64,000 nucleotides of DNA from Helicobacter sp. MIT 21-1697 (GCF_026241255.1 NZ_JAPHNC010000003.1:124001-188000); one strand, 5' to 3'; positions 21,954 through 30,763 are shown, counted from the first letter of the stretch. Made by a program: numbers and translations. Notes: a model not told the origin generated them from the sequence alone.

Positions 21954-22890
21954 ATGAAAGAAGCGGATTTTGAGGTGCTTATTTGCCTTAAAAGCCTTGA
22001 TAGCAAACTTTTTCCAACAATGATACGCTATGTAGAAACCAATATCAAGCCAAAAGGCATAACGCTTATCACTCATAGAGAGAGTATCGCGCAGTATAAG
22101 CAAAGCTATCCTCATATTTGTTTTATTGATGAGGATTGTGTTTATCCCAAGCTGACATTTGGTGCTGTGCAAGAGAAGCTCTCATCACTTGGCTGTGCGC
22201 TCAATCGTGCAGGTTGGTATTTACAACAATTCTTAAAAATGGCTTATTCTGCGCATCAGCACTCTGCTGCTTCAAGCAGCGGGGGGGGGGGGGCATTATC
22301 TCATTTGGGACGCGGATTGTATCCCTTTAAGAGATTTAAGCTTTTTTAACACTAAGGCTCAAGTCTTCATTGAAAAAACCAAAAAGTTCCACAAGCCCTA
22401 TTTTGATACATTGGATAGTCTTAAAATCCCTATGAGCAAAAGCGTGTATCTACACAAAGCCGCGCCTTTTAGCTTTATCACTGAAAATATGATGATAGAA
22501 TCCTCTGTGATGAATGAGCTTATTTCTCTCATAGAACAGAGGCATCATAAGGCATTTTGGGAGGCGATTTTAGAGCATATTAATCCCCTAGATTTGCCAC
22601 ACTCTGGCTTTAGTGAATATGAAAGCTATGGAAATTTTGTATATGCGAAATACCCCCATTCATTTGAAATCATCACGCGCAAAAGAGATAGATTTGCTAA
22701 AAGGCTTGTTGGTGAAGCGCCAAGTGAGGCATTACTCAAGTGGTATGCGAGAGATTATGAAGTTATAAGCATAGAATCGTGGGATAAAACAAGCTTTTTG
22801 TATCCATTCATTCAAAGATATACAATCTTTAGAATCTTCCCGCCACGATTCTATAAAGTCCTTTTAGCCCTCTTTGAGAGAATCCGATAG
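21954..22890 (+). pseudogene. DUF6492/glycosyltransferase-like gene, phase-OFF at a G13 tract
   Basis: Residues 1-109 (DFEVLICLKSLDSKLFPTMI...LNRAGWYLQQFLKMAYSA) read from ATG 21954 to a G13 tract; the current frame then ends at TAA about 20 codons later. The following frame continues with GHYLIWDADCIPLRDLSFF and runs to 22890. Dropping one G (G12) or adding two (G15) joins them into a 311-residue protein. The YLIWDAD segment resembles the metal-binding DxD region of glycosyltransferases, and the overall pattern fits the DUF6492 family. It is not a decayed gene but a contingency locus. It follows ilvD with no gap, so it may ride on that transcript. Confidence 0.82.
22281..22293 (+). repeat. 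G13 phase-variation tract
   Basis: Thirteen consecutive G after codon 109 of the DUF6492-like gene. A length divisible by three puts both halves in one frame; at 13 the gene is OFF. Confidence 0.85.
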
Positions 22891-22956
22891 GGTGCGGAGT
22901 TCGTTAATGAGCGGGCTAATGACATAATTCCGGTGGTAACCTAAATCATTTAGTTC

Positions 22957-23298
22957 TCATTCCAATGCTCCCCAACTCTCAAAGTATCGTGCTTTTTCTA
23001 TCATTTTTTCAGGCAGTTTAATCCCCGCTTCTGTGAGCAAATCTAAACACTCTTTGTATAACATCTCCCATTCTCTTTCTTTCTTGTATTTCTCATACTC
23101 CTTGATTATTTCTTGTTCCTCCAAATATTCCTTATACTCCGCCACTAATTTATCAATCTCCTCTTGCTCCACTATTAGCTCTGTGGGATTTTCTTCTTGT
23201 TGTGTGAGTTCTTTTTCATATTTTTTCTCATACACCGCTTTAAATGTGAAATCCTCTGGCAACATATCAAGGATTTTTTGAAGTTCTTTGTTATTCAT
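22957..23298 (-). CDS. Small acidic coiled-coil protein, last gene of the accessory cluster
   Basis: 113 residues, very rich in Glu and Lys (LVAEYKEYLEEQEIIKEYEKYKKEREWEML), with a predicted helical or coiled-coil middle and a hydrophobic end (ESWGALE). No family recognised. AAAGGA precedes the ATG by 6 bases, so it is likely expressed. It lies 67 bases downstream of the nuclease gene on the same strand, so it could be an accessory, adaptor or antidote for the system. The 66 bases between it and the DUF6492-like gene hold nothing I recognise. Confidence 0.65.
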   Translation of the reverse strand: MNNKELQKILDMLPEDFTFKAVYEKKYEKELTQQEENPTELIVEQEEIDKLVAEYKEYLEEQEIIKEYEKYKKEREWEMLYKECLDLLTEAGIKLPEKMIEKARYFESWGALE

Positions 23299-23365
23299 TG
23301 TATTCCTTTAGAATGCTAAGCAACCCAATCTACATAGATTTTGGGCAACTTAGCAAGATGAGATT

Positions 23366-24640
23366 CTATGCACTAAATTTTGCGAGTTTAGAATCTGCGC
23401 CTTTGTCTAAATCCGCTTTGATTTTAGCATTGATTTTATCTACAAACTCTCTATTTTCCTCAAAGAAGTCTAAAAACTCTTGTGGATTGAAAAATATATC
23501 ATCAGTATAGTGATAGGATTTAAGCCCAACGCAGAGATTATTATTGCTTGTCGTATTGGGATCGAAATCATTCTCTTTTAATCCTGTAATTTCTTGTAGC
23601 ACAGGTAAAAGTTCTGTTGTTTTATTTGTGTCGTGTTTAAAAAGATAGATACAAAACTCCCTAATACGCTTTTTTCCTTTTGTATTTATCTCAGCAGCAA
23701 AGGTAAAACTTAGCTCACACTTATCCAACTCACTTACCCACGCACAAAAATAATCAGCACCATATTTAGTAGTATATTTCTCCCTATATTTTTCCTTTAT
23801 TGCCCTGTCAATAAGCCCAAAAGTCGCCTCCATTACAGAATCTTGATTTTTACATAGCTCTAGTGCTGTCGTGTGAAGATTCTCATTATCCATAAAAAAT
23901 GCTGCCATACTCATCGTATTCTCCTTTTTTCTTACTACGCGTTCAACTACATCTTTGTAGCACTCTATTGCCATTTTGAGATTTGCGATATTACTAATCT
24001 CACGCATACACTTATCAAGCCATTGCAAAATATGCGTTTCATAGCTGATTTGCCTATATGCCACTTTCCCTTTGCTAGATTCCAAAAAATCACCTTGAAT
24101 CTCCCATTTTATGCCATTGTGCGAAAGGGAGCAGACATTGGGTTGCCAATTATGCGGGGTAAGATACACAACAGCGATATTGTCATAAATTTTGCTTTGT
24201 AAATCCACACTTTCAGAATCCGCCTCATCATCACACAATTTTTGAGCGATTGTATCAATATACCTCGCAATCTGCCCCTCTTGGTCACCACTCCCAATTT
24301 TATTTTCAATGATGATATGCTTTTGCCCATTGGTGATATGAATATCAATATTTTTTCTCTCCTTGCTCACATTGGCATTTTTTATGTCGCTAAAAAAACT
24401 TTTAAGCGAGAGAGATTCTAAAAAAAGTTCCAAAAACAGCTCATCTTGGCAATGCTCACCTCTAGGATGAAGTAAAGCATAAAGAAACCCGCTGTGCATA
24501 TTTACCTCATCATTTTGCTTTTGCACACAAAGCAAAGGGTTGAAGTCATTTTCACCGCGCTTTTTGCGCTCATTGACACGCTTTTGCCAAAGTGCGAAGT
24601 TTTCACACAATTCGCGCAATTTTGTCTCATCAGTTTGCAT
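23366..24640 (-). CDS. PD-(D/E)XK nuclease superfamily protein (PDDEXK_4-like)
   Basis: 424-residue predicted nuclease. The catalytic core is visible at residues 97-127: NIDIHI (Asp99), IIIENKI (Glu112, Lys114), then GDQEGQIARYID with the conserved Gln and Tyr. Upstream, EVNMHSGFLYALLHPRGEH (about 45-63) is the N-terminal signature of this family (Pfam PDDEXK_4). The C-terminal half has no recognised domain. AAGGAGA precedes the ATG. It stands third in a leftward set after an AAA+ ATPase and an unknown protein, a setting typical of defence or restriction functions. DNA rather than RNA as target is an inference. Confidence 0.85.
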   Translation of the reverse strand: MQTDETKLRELCENFALWQKRVNERKKRGENDFNPLLCVQKQNDEVNMHSGFLYALLHPRGEHCQDELFLELFLESLSLKSFFSDIKNANVSKERKNIDIHITNGQKHIIIENKIGSGDQEGQIARYIDTIAQKLCDDEADSESVDLQSKIYDNIAVVYLTPHNWQPNVCSLSHNGIKWEIQGDFLESSKGKVAYRQISYETHILQWLDKCMREISNIANLKMAIECYKDVVERVVRKKENTMSMAAFFMDNENLHTTALELCKNQDSVMEATFGLIDRAIKEKYREKYTTKYGADYFCAWVSELDKCELSFTFAAEINTKGKKRIREFCIYLFKHDTNKTTELLPVLQEITGLKENDFDPNTTSNNNLCVGLKSYHYTDDIFFNPQEFLDFFEENREFVDKINAKIKADLDKGADSKLAKFSA

Positions 24641-24716
24641 TCTGTCTCCTTATTTTATTTTGCTGCGTCTTATATATCCACTAAGAATAACGCGCAGTTG
24701 CAATGATAGTTTAATC

Positions 24717-24730
24717 AAAAAAAAAAAAAA
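24717..24730. repeat. A14/T14 homopolymer in the leader of the nuclease gene
   Basis: Fourteen A on the + strand (T14 in the transcribed direction) between the stop of the 612-residue gene (24738) and the nuclease start (24640). No GC-rich hairpin precedes it, so it is not a standard terminator. Its length is probably unstable. Confidence 0.6.
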
Positions 24731-24737
24731 CGCAAGT

Positions 24738-26576
24738 TTAACATTCCCTATAAATATAAATATATTTTGTTCCCTTGCCTGTATTTGGCGTTACTTTTGT
24801 GAGCTGTCCTTGCGTGTCAAAGTGAAATCGCTGCTCTTTATAGTATAGGATATAGCCCCAAATATCATCACGCAATGCTAATGCGCCTTGATTGCGCTCA
24901 TAATGCCCCCTCACAAGTGCACCCACTCTGTCTAGAATCTCGTGCAGTGTGAGTTCCTTTTCTCCCAAGTCTGCGTGGAGAGGAAGAAAAGATTCCATTC
25001 CTATTCTTTTAAGCTGTTTATAATCGCTATCTTCATTTATATCTTTGCAAATGACTTCAATATGATGTTTGCTCACTTCTTTCCATATATTGAGTGCTGT
25101 TTCCTCCTCTGTTATGTGGCGCAAAATCTCCGCAAAAATAAAGGGCGAATAGCTCTCACTCACAAGCTTTTGAATCCGCAAGAAAACCTCCTTTGCTGTA
25201 TAAACTTTGTCATACACATAGCTTTGCAGAAAGTTTTTCAAGCTACTTGATTTGACAAAGCATTGCAGGGCAGCTTGTGCTTTTTGCACATTTGCATAGC
25301 CTAGAATCTTCGCCCTTTGATTTTGGGACTGCAAACTAGAATCTTCAAGCTGCTTGGCAATAGACGCTTTAAGAGTGGAGAAAAACTCATCGCAAGAGGG
25401 GATTTGCACTTGGGGCTTTGGCACATCTACATAAATCTTGCCCACACTCTCTACACTATGCCACAAAAAAGTATCTCGCAGATAACCTCGCATAGAATCT
25501 CTAAATCCAATATGGATGTTTGTGATACTGCCCTCTCTGCTAAATAGAGTAGAATATGCTTCCTCTGCATAGAGTTGCACAACATCAGTTTCTAGATTCC
25601 ACACGCTAGGCGGGATAGGAATGTCCCACTTGATTCTTGCAAAGGCGCGTGAAGTGCTAAGACAAGCTCGAACAACCATAGCTCCGCTATAACCGGTATG
25701 CCAACCTCCATATGTAGGTATATATCTATAACGCACGAGATTCTGTGCGGGTGTGAGCTTAAAATCTCGCTCCAAAAAATAAGCGCGTAGCCTAAAAGAT
25801 TCTTTTGCGCAATCTCCACACGCTAAATCCACGCTTTTGGCATTTTCATAGATTGTGATAAGCCGCTCTGCAAAGCTTTTAAGCGTTATTTTACCCTCTC
25901 TAATGCCCTGCCATTGCATACTACAATCAATCCTACGAGGTTCAATAAATGAATCTTTCCTTGCAATCTCTTGAATCCACACTCCCTCGCTGCTAAACAT
26001 ACCAAATGATTCTATACCTGCTTTGTGCGCAATTGCATAGAGCTTGGAGTGAAAATCTTTTTGAGCTTGATTCATATCAGCACAGGAATTAAAATCAGCC
26101 GCTATGAGATAATACAGCTTACCATTTTCTAGCTCATCAAAATCTATCCTCGCATATTTACCAAACTTTTTGAGTATGGATTCTATATTGAGATTTTCTC
26201 TATTTGACTTTGTGCTTTCTGCCTGTAAGCCGATGTATTCACAAGTAGCACTATCGCTATTAAAGGCAAAGCAGAGATTATAAAGCTCTAAGCCTAGCAG
26301 TTTGTGTCGCTGCATATTTTTGTATCCTAAAAGGAGCGTAAAAAGCTCCTCATCACTTAGTATCTCTTGCTCTTTAAGTTCGCGCGGCAACTCTTTATAA
26401 GATTCGCCTGATAAGAAAGTATTGATAAGCGATTCTTTTTGCTCCGCACTCACTTCATTTGATTTGATATGTGCGGATATGAGATAGAAATACACTTTCT
26501 TTGAGTTTGCTCCAAAATGTGTGAAAAATTGCACGAGCTTGTCTTTATTAATCCTTGTTTGTAATACGTGGTTCAT
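24738..26576 (-). CDS. 612-residue protein of unknown function in the accessory cluster
   Basis: Large soluble-looking protein without signal peptide or membrane helices. I recognise no domain. Visible points: a helical N-terminal part (residues 1-110), a middle section with a CGDC motif and an aromatic Gly-rich segment (RYRYIPTYGGWHTGYSGAM), and a C-terminal end with WGYILYYKEQRFHFDTQGQL. ATG 26576 is chosen because AGGAG lies 5 bases upstream; the in-frame GTG at 26582 overlaps that site. It sits 72 bases after the AAA+ gene and before the nuclease, so it is likely the specific partner (sensor, substrate adaptor or effector) of the cluster. Confidence 0.7.
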   Translation of the reverse strand: MNHVLQTRINKDKLVQFFTHFGANSKKVYFYLISAHIKSNEVSAEQKESLINTFLSGESYKELPRELKEQEILSDEELFTLLLGYKNMQRHKLLGLELYNLCFAFNSDSATCEYIGLQAESTKSNRENLNIESILKKFGKYARIDFDELENGKLYYLIAADFNSCADMNQAQKDFHSKLYAIAHKAGIESFGMFSSEGVWIQEIARKDSFIEPRRIDCSMQWQGIREGKITLKSFAERLITIYENAKSVDLACGDCAKESFRLRAYFLERDFKLTPAQNLVRYRYIPTYGGWHTGYSGAMVVRACLSTSRAFARIKWDIPIPPSVWNLETDVVQLYAEEAYSTLFSREGSITNIHIGFRDSMRGYLRDTFLWHSVESVGKIYVDVPKPQVQIPSCDEFFSTLKASIAKQLEDSSLQSQNQRAKILGYANVQKAQAALQCFVKSSSLKNFLQSYVYDKVYTAKEVFLRIQKLVSESYSPFIFAEILRHITEEETALNIWKEVSKHHIEVICKDINEDSDYKQLKRIGMESFLPLHADLGEKELTLHEILDRVGALVRGHYERNQGALALRDDIWGYILYYKEQRFHFDTQGQLTKVTPNTGKGTKYIYIYREC

Positions 26577-26648
26577 TTTCACTCCTGTGTTTTTAAGCTA
26601 TACTCCAAGTAAAGTTATAACAAAGTGTTTTGACAACATTGTGGGATT

Positions 26649-28700
26649 TTAAAATCCCATTCTTTTGCTCTTTTGAGAATCTTTGAGTGCGGATTCGGCA
26701 TAGAGCCTCTCAAGTAGCATTTCGCAATGACTTGGTGGGTTAAATCTTGCTTCCCTGACAATGAGCGCAAAATCGCCAAAGCAGATATTGCTAAGTCGTG
26801 CAAAATCTTGCCTGTGAGTTTTTACAAACTCTTGCGTATCGTTTAAGCCCAAATAATGCGCATACATTAAAAAAGCCTTTTCTAAACGCACCACATCAAG
26901 GCTTTTAAAGCTAATTTTCATATCAAATCTCCGAATACTTGCGGTATCTAATGTGTCTAAAAAGTTTGTTGTCGCAAGGAAAATGCCCTCAAAGGATTCC
27001 ATTTGAGTAAGCATTTCATTGACTTGTGTTATCTCCCAGCTTCTTTGCGCATCGCTTCTATCCTGCAAGAAACTATCCACCTCATCAAAGACTAAGATTG
27101 CTTTTTGCTCCCTTGCTTCCCTAAAGGCTTGAGCGATATTTTTTTCAGTGCCACCTACCCACATTGAGAGCAAATCGCTACCTTTTTTGCAGATAATGTC
27201 CTTTTTTAATTCCTTTGCTAAAGCCTTTGTGTATTCACTTTTGCCACTTCCGGGTGCGCCATAGAGGAGGATTCTTGCTCCACATTGTGCGTTTTTTATC
27301 CCCTCACTTATCTTTTTTACATCAATATCCGCATTGATTAATCCCATATCATAGGGCAATTCATTGCTCTTTTGTAACACAATCTCTTTTTTATCTTGCA
27401 GCTTCAAATGCTCGTTAATCACTTTTAATGCACTTTGCTCTGCTTTGTTTTTGGGAGCAGTTTTAGCCGCCTTTAGCGCATTTAAGAGAATGCCTGTGGA
27501 GAGATTGTTTTGCGCCATTTTTTCTATAAGCTTAGAATCTAGCTGACATTTATGCGTCTTAAGGGTGGATTCTATCAGTTGGATTTGCTTTTGTTTTGGC
27601 GGGATTTTTATCTCTAGCACAATACCAAATCGCCTCAAAAGTGCCGGGTCAATATCGCAGCTATTGCTTAAAAAAATACTTGGCACTTTGATAGATTCTA
27701 TCATTTCATTGAGCAATCCTTTTTGTAAAGAATCTGCATTGTGGGAGAAATGTCTCCAAGAATAATCTGCAAAAATATCCTCGCATTCATCAAAAAGCAC
27801 GATATGGTTTTTGCTATTAAGGAGATTCTGCGCAAGGATAAATCGTTGAATATTGCTTGACTTATATTGTTTTTCATCTAAAGATTTAGAAATCTTAAAT
27901 AATTCTTTTTGCAGTGTTTTTGCCAAAAGGGAGGCAATCTCATTTTTGCCTACTCCGGGTGAGCCATAGAGATAGATACTAGGATTCTTTGCTTTTTTGA
28001 AATAGTTTAAAAGCAAAGTGATGTCCTCTTGCATAAAGTCAAAATCTGCCAAATGCAGTTTGGTAGGCTTCACAAGTGAAGTGATATTGTGAAGCACATT
28101 GCGCTTTGTCAGTGGCTTTTCAAAAAACTCTTTTGCAAAATCGCTTATCTCAAATCCAGTGTAATTATCTTTTTCTAAGAATTTAAGCTTTCTTAAAGGC
28201 GCATTTTCACTTAAAATCTCACGCATTTTGTGTTCTCTCACATTAAAAAATGAGGATATAATTTTTATCCAATTTTTTAAAGTGGCTTTTTTAAAAAATC
28301 TTTGGAAACCCATTTCATCAAAAATATAATAAAAATACAAAACTTCTACCTCTAAGGGTTTGAGGTGTAAATATGTTTGCAAAAATGTCATATTTGCTTT
28401 TATAAATGGCTCAAATGTAAAATGATGATAATGTTTTTGCAAAATGGGCAAAATGATTTTAAATTTATCGAATCTATCTCCTTCGCAGTCTTCTATATCT
28501 TTAGCAAAATTAAGCTCAAATAAATCAAAGTAGTAACCTCTTTCTATTAAATGCAGCATAGTGGAAGCGATATGCGTAAAGATGACTTTTGCATTATGCG
28601 CTTGCTTTGTATCACAGCTTGCATCAAAGGGGAGAATTTCTTTTAACAATGCTTCTTTTTCTTGTGCGTTTAAACTTGCTCCATTTTTATATTTTCTCAT
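26649..28700 (-). CDS. Tandem AAA+ ATPase of the accessory cluster
   Basis: 683-residue protein with an unfamiliar helical N-terminal region (1-230) and two AAA+ modules. Module 1: Walker A GSPGVGKN (246-253), Walker B VLFDE (301-305), sensor-like SNSCD, arginine pair LLRRFG. Module 2: Walker A GAPGSGKS (481-488), Walker B ILVFDE (535-540), sensor TTNF, arginine pair IRRFD. Module 1 has Asn where Thr/Ser normally binds magnesium, so it may bind but hydrolyse poorly. The layout resembles Cdc48/VPS4-type remodellers. ATG 28700 has AAGGAG upstream; a longer in-frame start lacks one. First gene of the leftward set, divergent from the WYL regulator. Confidence 0.88.
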   Translation of the reverse strand: MRKYKNGASLNAQEKEALLKEILPFDASCDTKQAHNAKVIFTHIASTMLHLIERGYYFDLFELNFAKDIEDCEGDRFDKFKIILPILQKHYHHFTFEPFIKANMTFLQTYLHLKPLEVEVLYFYYIFDEMGFQRFFKKATLKNWIKIISSFFNVREHKMREILSENAPLRKLKFLEKDNYTGFEISDFAKEFFEKPLTKRNVLHNITSLVKPTKLHLADFDFMQEDITLLLNYFKKAKNPSIYLYGSPGVGKNEIASLLAKTLQKELFKISKSLDEKQYKSSNIQRFILAQNLLNSKNHIVLFDECEDIFADYSWRHFSHNADSLQKGLLNEMIESIKVPSIFLSNSCDIDPALLRRFGIVLEIKIPPKQKQIQLIESTLKTHKCQLDSKLIEKMAQNNLSTGILLNALKAAKTAPKNKAEQSALKVINEHLKLQDKKEIVLQKSNELPYDMGLINADIDVKKISEGIKNAQCGARILLYGAPGSGKSEYTKALAKELKKDIICKKGSDLLSMWVGGTEKNIAQAFREAREQKAILVFDEVDSFLQDRSDAQRSWEITQVNEMLTQMESFEGIFLATTNFLDTLDTASIRRFDMKISFKSLDVVRLEKAFLMYAHYLGLNDTQEFVKTHRQDFARLSNICFGDFALIVREARFNPPSHCEMLLERLYAESALKDSQKSKRMGF

Positions 28701-28747
28701 AGGCACTCCTTTTTGGCAAAATACGATGAAGTTGTAACACATTCAAA

Positions 28748-28799
28748 GGACAGGGCTATGTCCAAAAAATAAAATTGCACTATAATGTCAAAAAATAAA
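28748..28799. promoter_or_regulatory. Divergent control region between the AAA+ gene and the WYL regulator
   Basis: The 107-base intergenic region holds a perfect TATAAT (28781-28786) for the rightward WYL gene, an inverted repeat GGACA-N6-TGTCC (28748-28763), and two near-identical A-rich stretches (28758-28774 and 28785-28799), each beginning ATGTC, on either side of the -10 box. This is a plausible operator for the WYL protein controlling itself and the leftward genes. Confidence 0.5.
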
Positions 28800-28807
28800 G
28801 GGGCAAG

Positions 28808-29761
28808 ATGAAGATAAAACATTATGATGTGCTAAGCCATAGAATCGCCACGATTTTGAAACTTTTAGCAGAGAGTGAGAGCATAGAGGTTGCTAAGCTA
28901 TGTGCAGAGTTTAATGTGAGTGAAAAAACGATTGGGCGGGATATTAAACGCATTAATGACCCAAATATTACGCTTAAAAAGGGTAAAATCACAATGCAGC
29001 ACACGCAAACTCCCTACAACACGCAAGAGCAAATCGCACTTTTTGTCCTACAAAATATCGCTAAGGATTTAGGCGGAGAGGTTGGGCGCAATGCTGCGGC
29101 ACTTTTGGATAAATTAAACACTCCAAAGCCAGAATCTGCGCACAATGTGTTTTTTACCAAAACTTTGCTTGATGATATAAGCGTGAGTGCGCAAGAGCTG
29201 CATACTTTGCAACATTGCATTACGCATAAACAAATGATTTCTTGCCTCTTTCATCATAAAAGTAGAATCTTAGCACCTTTAAAAATTGTCGCTTTTGATG
29301 GAGAATGGTATCTCTTTGCGCTAGAATATACTGATAAAAAGGCGCAAAAGAGTAAAAAGGCAGATGAGCTAGGTTTGCTTAAACGATTTTATCTCAATGA
29401 TATAAATGCAATAGAATCTCTGCAAACGCCCTTTAATGCAGATGATAATATGTTAGATTCTATTGATGGAGCGATTAATGCGTGGTTTCACCCAGATAAT
29501 GAAAAAATCTTCGTGCGCTTATGGGTGGATAAAAAGGTGGCAAAGTATTTTAAACGCAAAAAGATAACATCAAAAGCGCAGGTTTTTGTGCAAAATGATG
29601 GCAGTGTGATGATAGAGCTACATATCACGCATTTCTTGGAGATTAGCGGGGAGGTGCTAAGGTGGATTCCCTATGTGGTGGTGCTAGAGCCAAAGGCATT
29701 AAGAGAATCCATCAGGCAAAGTGTAAAAGAATATATAAAAAAACTAGATTCCATAGAGTAA
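28808..29761 (+). CDS. WYL-domain transcriptional regulator
   Basis: 317-residue regulator with an N-terminal helix-turn-helix (about 10-55, SIEVAKLCAEFNVSEKTIGRDIKRI, DeoR-like) and a central-to-C-terminal WYL domain (about 140-230, including RILAPLKIVAFDGEWYLFALEY and LKRFYLNDI), followed by the WCX extension (WIPYVVVLEPKALRESI). WYL regulators commonly repress phage-defence operons (BrxR and CapW are studied examples) and respond to nucleic acid or nucleotide signals. It is divergent from the AAA+/nuclease genes. No strong ribosome site beyond AAAGGGG; ATG 28808 fits. Confidence 0.9.
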   Translation: MKIKHYDVLSHRIATILKLLAESESIEVAKLCAEFNVSEKTIGRDIKRINDPNITLKKGKITMQHTQTPYNTQEQIALFVLQNIAKDLGGEVGRNAAALLDKLNTPKPESAHNVFFTKTLLDDISVSAQELHTLQHCITHKQMISCLFHHKSRILAPLKIVAFDGEWYLFALEYTDKKAQKSKKADELGLLKRFYLNDINAIESLQTPFNADDNMLDSIDGAINAWFHPDNEKIFVRLWVDKKVAKYFKRKKITSKAQVFVQNDGSVMIELHITHFLEISGEVLRWIPYVVVLEPKALRESIRQSVKEYIKKLDSIE

Positions 29762-29860
29762 ATACCTTGCTTGTGGCAAAGGGAATGTGCAAGAGCCATA
29801 ATGGTAACATTATGACTTGCAATCCAAGAATAGTGCGATTGGCTTTTTGATTGATTTTTA

Positions 29861-30763
29861 TCAAAGTGTGTTAAATAAATCCGTTGAAAGGTATCGTTCC
29901 GCTGTATCATTGAGCATTGTAAGCACTTTTTTGTTTGGATTGCTTTTTGCAATCTTTTGTGCAATAGCGACATTTGCTCCGCTAGATATGCCAACCATTA
30001 CGCCGATTTTGCCCAAATCTTGCGCCATTTTGATAGCAACTTCATTTTCTACAATTTCAATAGCATCTATCACATCGCGATTAAGGATTTTGGGGATAAA
30101 GTTCGCACCAATGCCTTGAATCTTGTGTGGTCCTGCTTGTCCTTTGCTAAGCAGTGGTGAGGCGGCAGGTTCTACGCCTATGATTTGAATATGTGGAATC
30201 TTCTCTTTGAGCACCTCACCTACACCGCTGATTGTCCCGCCTGTGCCAAATCCTGCGACAAAATAATCTAATTTGCCCTCAAAGCTTTTATAAATCTCTA
30301 GTGCAGTTGTGCGTTTGTGCATTTCCTTATTCGCTAGATTCTCAAATTGACTTGGCATAAAAGCATTTGGTGTGGAATCTAAAATCTCTTGAGCCTTATC
30401 AAGCGCACCTTTCATACCTTCACTTGGTGGAGTAAGCACGAGAGTTGCGCCAAAAAATGCTATCATTTTGCGTCTTTCTATACTCATAGATTCGGGCATA
30501 GTGATGATGATTTTTAACCCAAGAGAGGCGCAAATCATTGCTAGAGAAATGCCCATATTGCCACTTGTGCATTCTACAATCGTAGTATCTTTGGTGATTT
30601 TTCCCTCTTTCATAGCTTGCTCTATCATCGCATAAGCAGGGCGGTCTTTGACAGAATGGCTTGGGTTTAAAAATTCGCATTTGCCATAGAGATTGGGGGC
30701 AAATTGTTGGAGATGTAAAATGGGAGTATTACCGATGAGTTCGGTGATATTTTGAGCTATCAT
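29861..30763 (-). CDS. Cysteine synthase (O-acetylserine sulfhydrylase, CysK/CysM type)
   Basis: 300-residue PLP enzyme making cysteine from O-acetylserine and sulfide. Features: LIGNTPILHL at the start, the PLP lysine at about residue 39 in NPSHSVKDR, the substrate loop TSGNMGISLAM, the phosphate-binding GFGTGGTISG, and GISSGANVAIA near the end. CysK usually has GNTG in the substrate loop and CysM similar; the variant here (SGNMG) does not settle the isozyme. AAAGGA precedes the ATG. It faces the WYL gene tail to tail, with 99 bases between. Confidence 0.9.
   Translation of the reverse strand: MIAQNITELIGNTPILHLQQFAPNLYGKCEFLNPSHSVKDRPAYAMIEQAMKEGKITKDTTIVECTSGNMGISLAMICASLGLKIIITMPESMSIERRKMIAFFGATLVLTPPSEGMKGALDKAQEILDSTPNAFMPSQFENLANKEMHKRTTALEIYKSFEGKLDYFVAGFGTGGTISGVGEVLKEKIPHIQIIGVEPAASPLLSKGQAGPHKIQGIGANFIPKILNRDVIDAIEIVENEVAIKMAQDLGKIGVMVGISSGANVAIAQKIAKSNPNKKVLTMLNDTAERYLSTDLFNTL

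Follow-up and report, generated by a model that had tools for sequence, protein, structure and literature searches.

The 64,000-nucleotide stretch of DNA from Helicobacter sp. MIT 21-1697 analysed here (the window) contains five adjacent genes between ilvD and cysK that a first-pass annotation proposed to work as a single anti-phage or anti-plasmid unit controlled by a WYL-family repressor. Do these genes belong together, what kind of module do they form, and how would they be switched on? The features on which the answers depend are as follows.

28808-29761, + strand: WYL/WCX transcription regulator, 317 aa (Pfam and PDB profile ranking)
26649-28742, - strand: tandem AAA+ (Cdc48/VAT-like) ATPase, 697 aa as annotated (two Pfam AAA matches, motifs, fold match)
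26649-28700, - strand: the AAA+ gene with its probable revised start, Met15 (Shine-Dalgarno sequence and promoter distance)
24738-26582, - strand: 614-aa protein with a GTG start (612 aa if counted from the ATG two codons in)
24741-25355, - strand: orphC, the C-terminal domain of ~200 aa of the 614-aa protein
23366-24640, - strand: PD-(D/E)XK nuclease (PDDEXK_4 / PDC-S26), 424 aa (Pfam, PADLOC, active-site residues)
22957-23298, - strand: acidic protein, 113 aa, SIR2-associated family (profile match 2.3e-07)
26652-26660, - strand: C-terminal MGF tripeptide of the AAA+ protein, candidate ClpP-docking motif
28748-28763, strand not assigned: putative operator, inverted repeat GGACAGGGCTATGTCC in the gap between the AAA+ and WYL genes, sole perfect copy in the window
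28731-28762, - strand: complete predicted AAA+ promoter GACA-N6-TGTC-N12-TACAAC, unique in the window (0.01 expected)
21954-29862: segment inserted between ilvD and cysK, by comparison with the sister species G342

Gene content and insertion site

All five open reading frames are present, one reading rightward and four leftward, and the identities assigned to the WYL regulator, the two AAA modules and the PDDEXK_4 nuclease (E 1.4e-29) were borne out by Pfam. The flanks are also as described, with an off-phase poly-G gene following ilvD on the left and cysK on the right, but the annotated AAA+ start needs correction: it is probably at 28700 (Met15) rather than 28742, because an AAGGAG Shine-Dalgarno sequence lies before the ATG there and the distance to the promoter is then in line with the homologues. 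The gaps between the leftward genes are short (66, 97 and 67 bp), and a scan of the window found no other promoter match inside these genes. As a whole the set matches no named PADLOC system, as the first reading had anticipated.

The nuclease matches the PADLOC candidate PDC-S26 along its full length (2.4e-45) and carries the D, E-x-K active site of the family, with D99, E112 and K114 invariant in nine aligned sequences whose C-terminal halves vary. What sets it apart from PDC-S26 is its membership of a leftward gene set behind an AAA+ gene; for PDC-S26 itself no mechanism has been established to our knowledge. In three other loci (L035 3572-8699, L033 1-7932, L027 288-3091) the AAA+ gene has two to four nuclease paralogues in tandem beside it, and here too the N-terminal halves are conserved and the C-terminal halves variable, as if targets or partners diversify. 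The 614-aa protein, which may resemble DUF3293, keeps its status as an orphan: it has no family in Pfam, PADLOC or PHROGs, and its N-terminal 400 residues have no relative in the order, the family, plasmids or viral contigs. Its AlphaFold model, for which there were two usable homologues, reached a pLDDT of 47 and was left out of the fold search. OrphC is an undescribed domain, which stands alone in other genomes and occurs in 24 of 200 genomes of the order; two loci (L047 and L048, in G371 and G060) encode proteins of about 420 aa with two tandem orphC domains. Fusion of orphC with its 274-aa neighbour (L027 8743-9567) was considered as an origin of the 614-aa protein and rejected, as profile comparison gave no significant match. 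The 113-aa protein had been called an acidic coiled coil; acidic it is, and beyond sub-threshold matches in family searches its family is one that otherwise adjoins SIR2 or is fused with it (fusion in L032).

Comparison with sister species places this gene set at a variable junction. In G342, ilvD and cysK are neighbours, about 100 bp apart, with no insert. The same junction holds an Eco57I-type methylase and an adjacent uncharacterised ORF in G350, a BsaWI-type endonuclease and methylase in G341 and G346, and the phase-variable gene plus the five-gene cluster in the window. Since the junction is empty in one sister and others carry two distinct restriction-modification systems there, it has the look of a defence hotspot, and the presence of type II restriction-modification systems at the same site supports a defence-island context. 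We regard this shared insertion site as the strongest argument here for a role in defence. Two features expected of an anti-phage system, conserved co-occurrence of the genes and a location that known defence systems also use, were found, and we read the cluster as a horizontally inserted immunity-type module, one part of an explanation, developed below, whose probability as a whole we put a little short of even.

Two further observations concern the junction itself. The gene between ilvD and the cluster (21954-22890) is split between two reading frames at a 13-G run (tract near 22280), which is consistent with phase variation; no Pfam family passed for it. In G350, about 44 bp of the ilvD 3' end is repeated after the Eco57I-type methylase insert (L152 6892-9438), a duplication that suggests how inserts enter.

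Recurrence and exchange of the cluster genes

A clear tandem AAA+ homologue is found in 12 of 121 Helicobacteraceae genomes, in some of them split or frameshifted. Across these 121 genomes, taken as independent and with cut-offs chosen by the analyst, Fisher tests associated it with the close WYL clade (9 shared genomes, p=1e-9), the 113-aa family (8, p=2e-8), orphC (7, p=1e-6) and the nuclease (6, p=2e-4). The set thus recurs together across the Helicobacteraceae, and it does so in one genome of another family, where a search led by orphC found WYL, PDDEXK_4 nuclease, orphC, AAA+ and GmrSD genes consecutively, the nuclease on the opposite strand (L181). AAA+ and orphC are joined again in L175, whose WYL gene was recognised by profile, and in L179, which spans the L002 locus, where a WYL gene was identified.

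The five genes form a recurrent association, and the pairing of AAA+ ATPase with PD-(D/E)XK nuclease, put forward as a recurring one, was seen again in relatives. What did not survive is the fixed five-gene unit, for partners come and go. Gene order and strand differ between loci, module composition is not fixed, and the position of the nuclease is taken in relatives by SIR2, GmrSD, DUF2779, PcfJ and others. Neither the nuclease nor orphC is an obligatory partner, since many AAA+ homologues occur without them. As judged from these loci, the common core is the AAA+ gene, often with the WYL gene, and the nuclease, the 614-type protein and SIR2, GmrSD, DUF2779 or PcfJ are its variable companions. 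One gene cluster had been taken for a second GmrSD type ('GmrSDb'); its members are in fact a DUF285-repeat family, some with a MoxR AAA domain, and their numbers were left out of the GmrSD counts.

This fluidity could mean that the locus is a defence island rather than one system, in which the WYL and AAA+ genes form a unit and the nuclease, the 614-aa and the 113-aa proteins act independently, as separate defence genes with a common hotspot and perhaps a common transcript. Exchangeable partners and varying gene order fit such an arrangement, as do the listing of the nuclease by PADLOC as a single-gene candidate and its occurrence without AAA+ in several genomes and in tandem copies. However, in several genera AAA+ and nuclease genes lie side by side on the same strand, remnant loci retain AAA+-nuclease and 113-aa-nuclease adjacency, and in the window the four leftward genes appear to share a single promoter. 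We regard independent action as an appreciable possibility, though not the one we would favour.

The AAA+ protein also has relatives on plasmids (18 records) and on a phage (one record). In many relatives (L026, L028, L029, L034, L036 and G324:C89) the AAA+ or WYL gene is broken or cut short, which indicates frequent loss of the module. Two other loci (L069 and L083) have a common gene pair, of about 214 and 259 aa, directly upstream of AAA+; a ThiF (E1-like) protein in L092 is a relative of the 214-aa family, which may hint at ubiquitin-like chemistry.

The WYL regulator and its putative operator

WYL regulators of two kinds offer precedents for control of the cluster. DriD of Caulobacter crescentus is an activator switched on by single-stranded DNA (ssDNA), whose site, ATACGAC-N7-GTCGTAT, is centred on a poor -35 element at a constant distance from the -10 (PMC12340889). 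BrxR and CapW, the defence-island WYL regulators studied so far, are repressors, with sites that overlap the -10 (CapW) or a box downstream of the -10 (BrxR) (PMC9122601, PMC9122588). The window protein has a DeoR-type HTH, a weak WYL match and a WCX domain (Pfam 7.5e-13), and when its family profile (A7) was compared with the PDB, similarity was greatest to DriD (1.6e-9) and PafBC (3.2e-9), followed by BrxR (1.7e-4) and CapW (0.26).

The inverted repeat of the AAA+/WYL gap first caught the eye in several homologous gaps, and all of the gaps were then tested for it. Of 89 AAA+ genes, 42 have GACA-N5/6-TGTC upstream, compared with 2.6% of random windows from the same loci; permuted half-sites reach at most 3/90, and 46 of the 51 occurrences have a spacing of 5 or 6. 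Among the 42, a -10 box follows TGTC at 12 (28 cases) or 11 bases (8 cases), a total of 36. The full promoter, GACA-N5/6-TGTC-N11/12-TAnnnT, occurs 103 times in the loci compared with 3.3 in 2-mer block shuffles of them, and a strict form scanned across 18 whole genomes gave 36 matches, many within islands, versus 2 for the reversed pattern. Twelve homologues, mainly from Pseudomonadota, carry an exact CGAC-N7-GTCG; the spacing of the window site is N8.

The same promoter precedes other island genes. It stands before 37 of 97 AAA+ genes and also before orphC (6/26), SIR2 (5/25), PcfJ (3/9) and WYL genes (10/54); directly upstream of nuclease and GmrSD genes it was found in 0/15 cases each. This distribution suggests a regulon of exchangeable island genes under one operator. 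A nearby WYL gene was found at 16 of 43 loci with the site and 11 of 47 without it (p=0.17), an association that is not significant, so the cognate WYL regulator of each site stays putative. A second match in the same genome as the window (C1:192269) was rejected as a target, as it overlaps, in antisense, the start of a 623-aa rpoD-like gene; the match is kept in G342, and no adjacent gene reads in its direction. Two islands, L173 (G057:C1:1396500-1414500) and L064, have a GACA-N5/6-TGTC promoter at many genes each, including those for an M28 peptidase, a leucine-rich-repeat protein and an ExoX-type exonuclease.

With its core GAC-N7-GTC-like repeat over the -35 at a constant distance from the -10, and a WYL/WCX protein of the homodimer type whose top PDB match is DriD, the locus resembles the DriD regulon. 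It departs from that regulon in its targets, here island genes with a Cdc48-like AAA+ hub and in Caulobacter didA, bapE, recJ and dnaG, and in the use of N8 besides N7 spacing; sensing of ssDNA would hold here by analogy. The repeat core, its place over the -35 and the profile ranking together make the WYL protein more likely an activator than a repressor, contrary to the BrxR/CapW analogy first drawn for it.

That analogy deserves weighing, for a repressor would keep the operon off until infection. As with BrxR and CapW (PMC9122601, PMC9122588), a WYL protein here sits beside defence-type genes with an inverted repeat in the promoter; the window site lies in the divergent AAA+/WYL gap, and a site over the -35 could also block polymerase. 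In contrast to the sites of those repressors, at or below the -10, the repeat here lies 11-12 bp upstream of the -10 and replaces the -35 at that fixed distance, as in DriD activator promoters, and the profile matches to BrxR and CapW are much poorer; we therefore consider repression unlikely.

Returning to an activator, its ligand may be ssDNA, as in DriD. The SOS response is absent in H. pylori and C. jejuni (PMC3820712), which makes an ssDNA-type switch plausible.

The AAA+ protein and a proposed mechanism

In 87 homologues of the AAA+ protein, mainly from Campylobacterota and Pseudomonadota, the Walker motifs and paired arginines of both modules are conserved. The second module has an aromatic-hydrophobic-glycine pore loop as in unfoldases, which is absent from the first ring. 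Among solved structures, sequence comparison places archaeal VAT and p97/Cdc48 nearest, and fold comparison p97/Cdc48 and Rix7; with two active-type AAA modules and an aromatic pore loop the protein has the features of a Cdc48/VAT-like tandem unfoldase. It differs from VAT and p97/Cdc48 in its own N-terminal region and in a C-terminal [IMV]GF tail. A likeness to IetAS was also considered, as the PADLOC profile for IetA matches the second AAA module (1.2e-36), but the window protein has two such modules, scores 109.9 bits against a cut-off of 510 for the NCBI family, and is accompanied by no S8 protease (no S8 peptidase Pfam match in the five proteins); this identity was rejected.

The tail is present in 79 of the 87 homologues, 14-17 residues past a fixed column of the last helix, with its G and F unchanged in all 54 proteins aligned, and its low confidence in the structure model is as expected of a flexible tail. 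An IGF-loop motif docks ClpX and ClpA on ClpP (PMC9035409, PMC10149685). The tail has the form of this motif ([LIVM]G[FL] in a flexible element), placed at the C terminus instead of in a loop, and a ClpP gene is encoded in the same genome; docking through the tail would be a way to reach the protease. We found no precedent for ClpP docking by a tail instead of an internal loop.

Taken together, the gene association, the insertion hotspot, the operator and promoter, the catalytic motifs and the conserved tail, all read from sequence, point tentatively to an inserted module that combines WYL activation by ssDNA, an AAA+ unfoldase with ClpP, and a nuclease. In such a module, ssDNA from phage replication, DNA uptake or damage would activate the DriD/PafBC-type WYL regulator, which would bind over the -35, at the inverted repeat GAC-N7/8-GTC, and induce the leftward operon of AAA+, 614-aa protein, nuclease and 113-aa protein from the promoter at 28731-28762. 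The double-ring AAA+ protein would draw target proteins through its second-ring pore, to remodel them or pass them to ClpP via the [IMV]GF tail; the 614-aa protein would probably choose or present the targets, and the nuclease would cut DNA. In relatives the same operator would drive SIR2, PcfJ, exonuclease and ADP-ribosylglycohydrolase genes. We infer, rather than observe, that these proteins act jointly and that their action is anti-phage. The fullest form of the proposal, an ssDNA-inducible immune regulon with a DriD-type WYL regulator, the GACA-N5/6-TGTC code on interchangeable defence genes and a ClpP-feeding AAA+ hub, we regard as rather doubtful.

The least probable alternative is a LexA-independent DNA-damage recovery module, in which a WYL activator would induce the unfoldase, with ClpP, to clear repair or replication proteins; for comparison, mycobacteria encode PafBC together with the Pup-proteasome system. 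That DriD and PafBC govern DNA-damage responses, that H. pylori and C. jejuni manage without SOS (PMC3820712), and that the AAA+ gene has ordinary housekeeping neighbours in several loci would suit this idea, yet the patchy distribution (12/121), the insertion hotspot common to restriction systems, the GmrSD, SIR2, PDDEXK_4 and DUF2779 neighbours, the plasmid copies and the frequent decay make it quite unlikely.

WYL-regulated defence islands and PDDEXK_4 candidates are already known, the regulators being described mainly as repressors. In a limited search of open papers, no earlier account was found of the gene set, of this promoter code on the various island genes, or of any Cdc48-like protein from bacteria that carries a ClpP-type tail. 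If the tail docks as its form suggests, a Cdc48-type bacterial unfoldase would be a new partner for a well-studied protease. If the promoter code on exchangeable island genes works as proposed, islands would be induced together by a damage signal, which bears on how Campylobacterota that lack an SOS response sense DNA attack: such a system would provide bacteria without LexA with an SOS-like alarm that couples DNA invasion to proteolysis and DNA cleavage.
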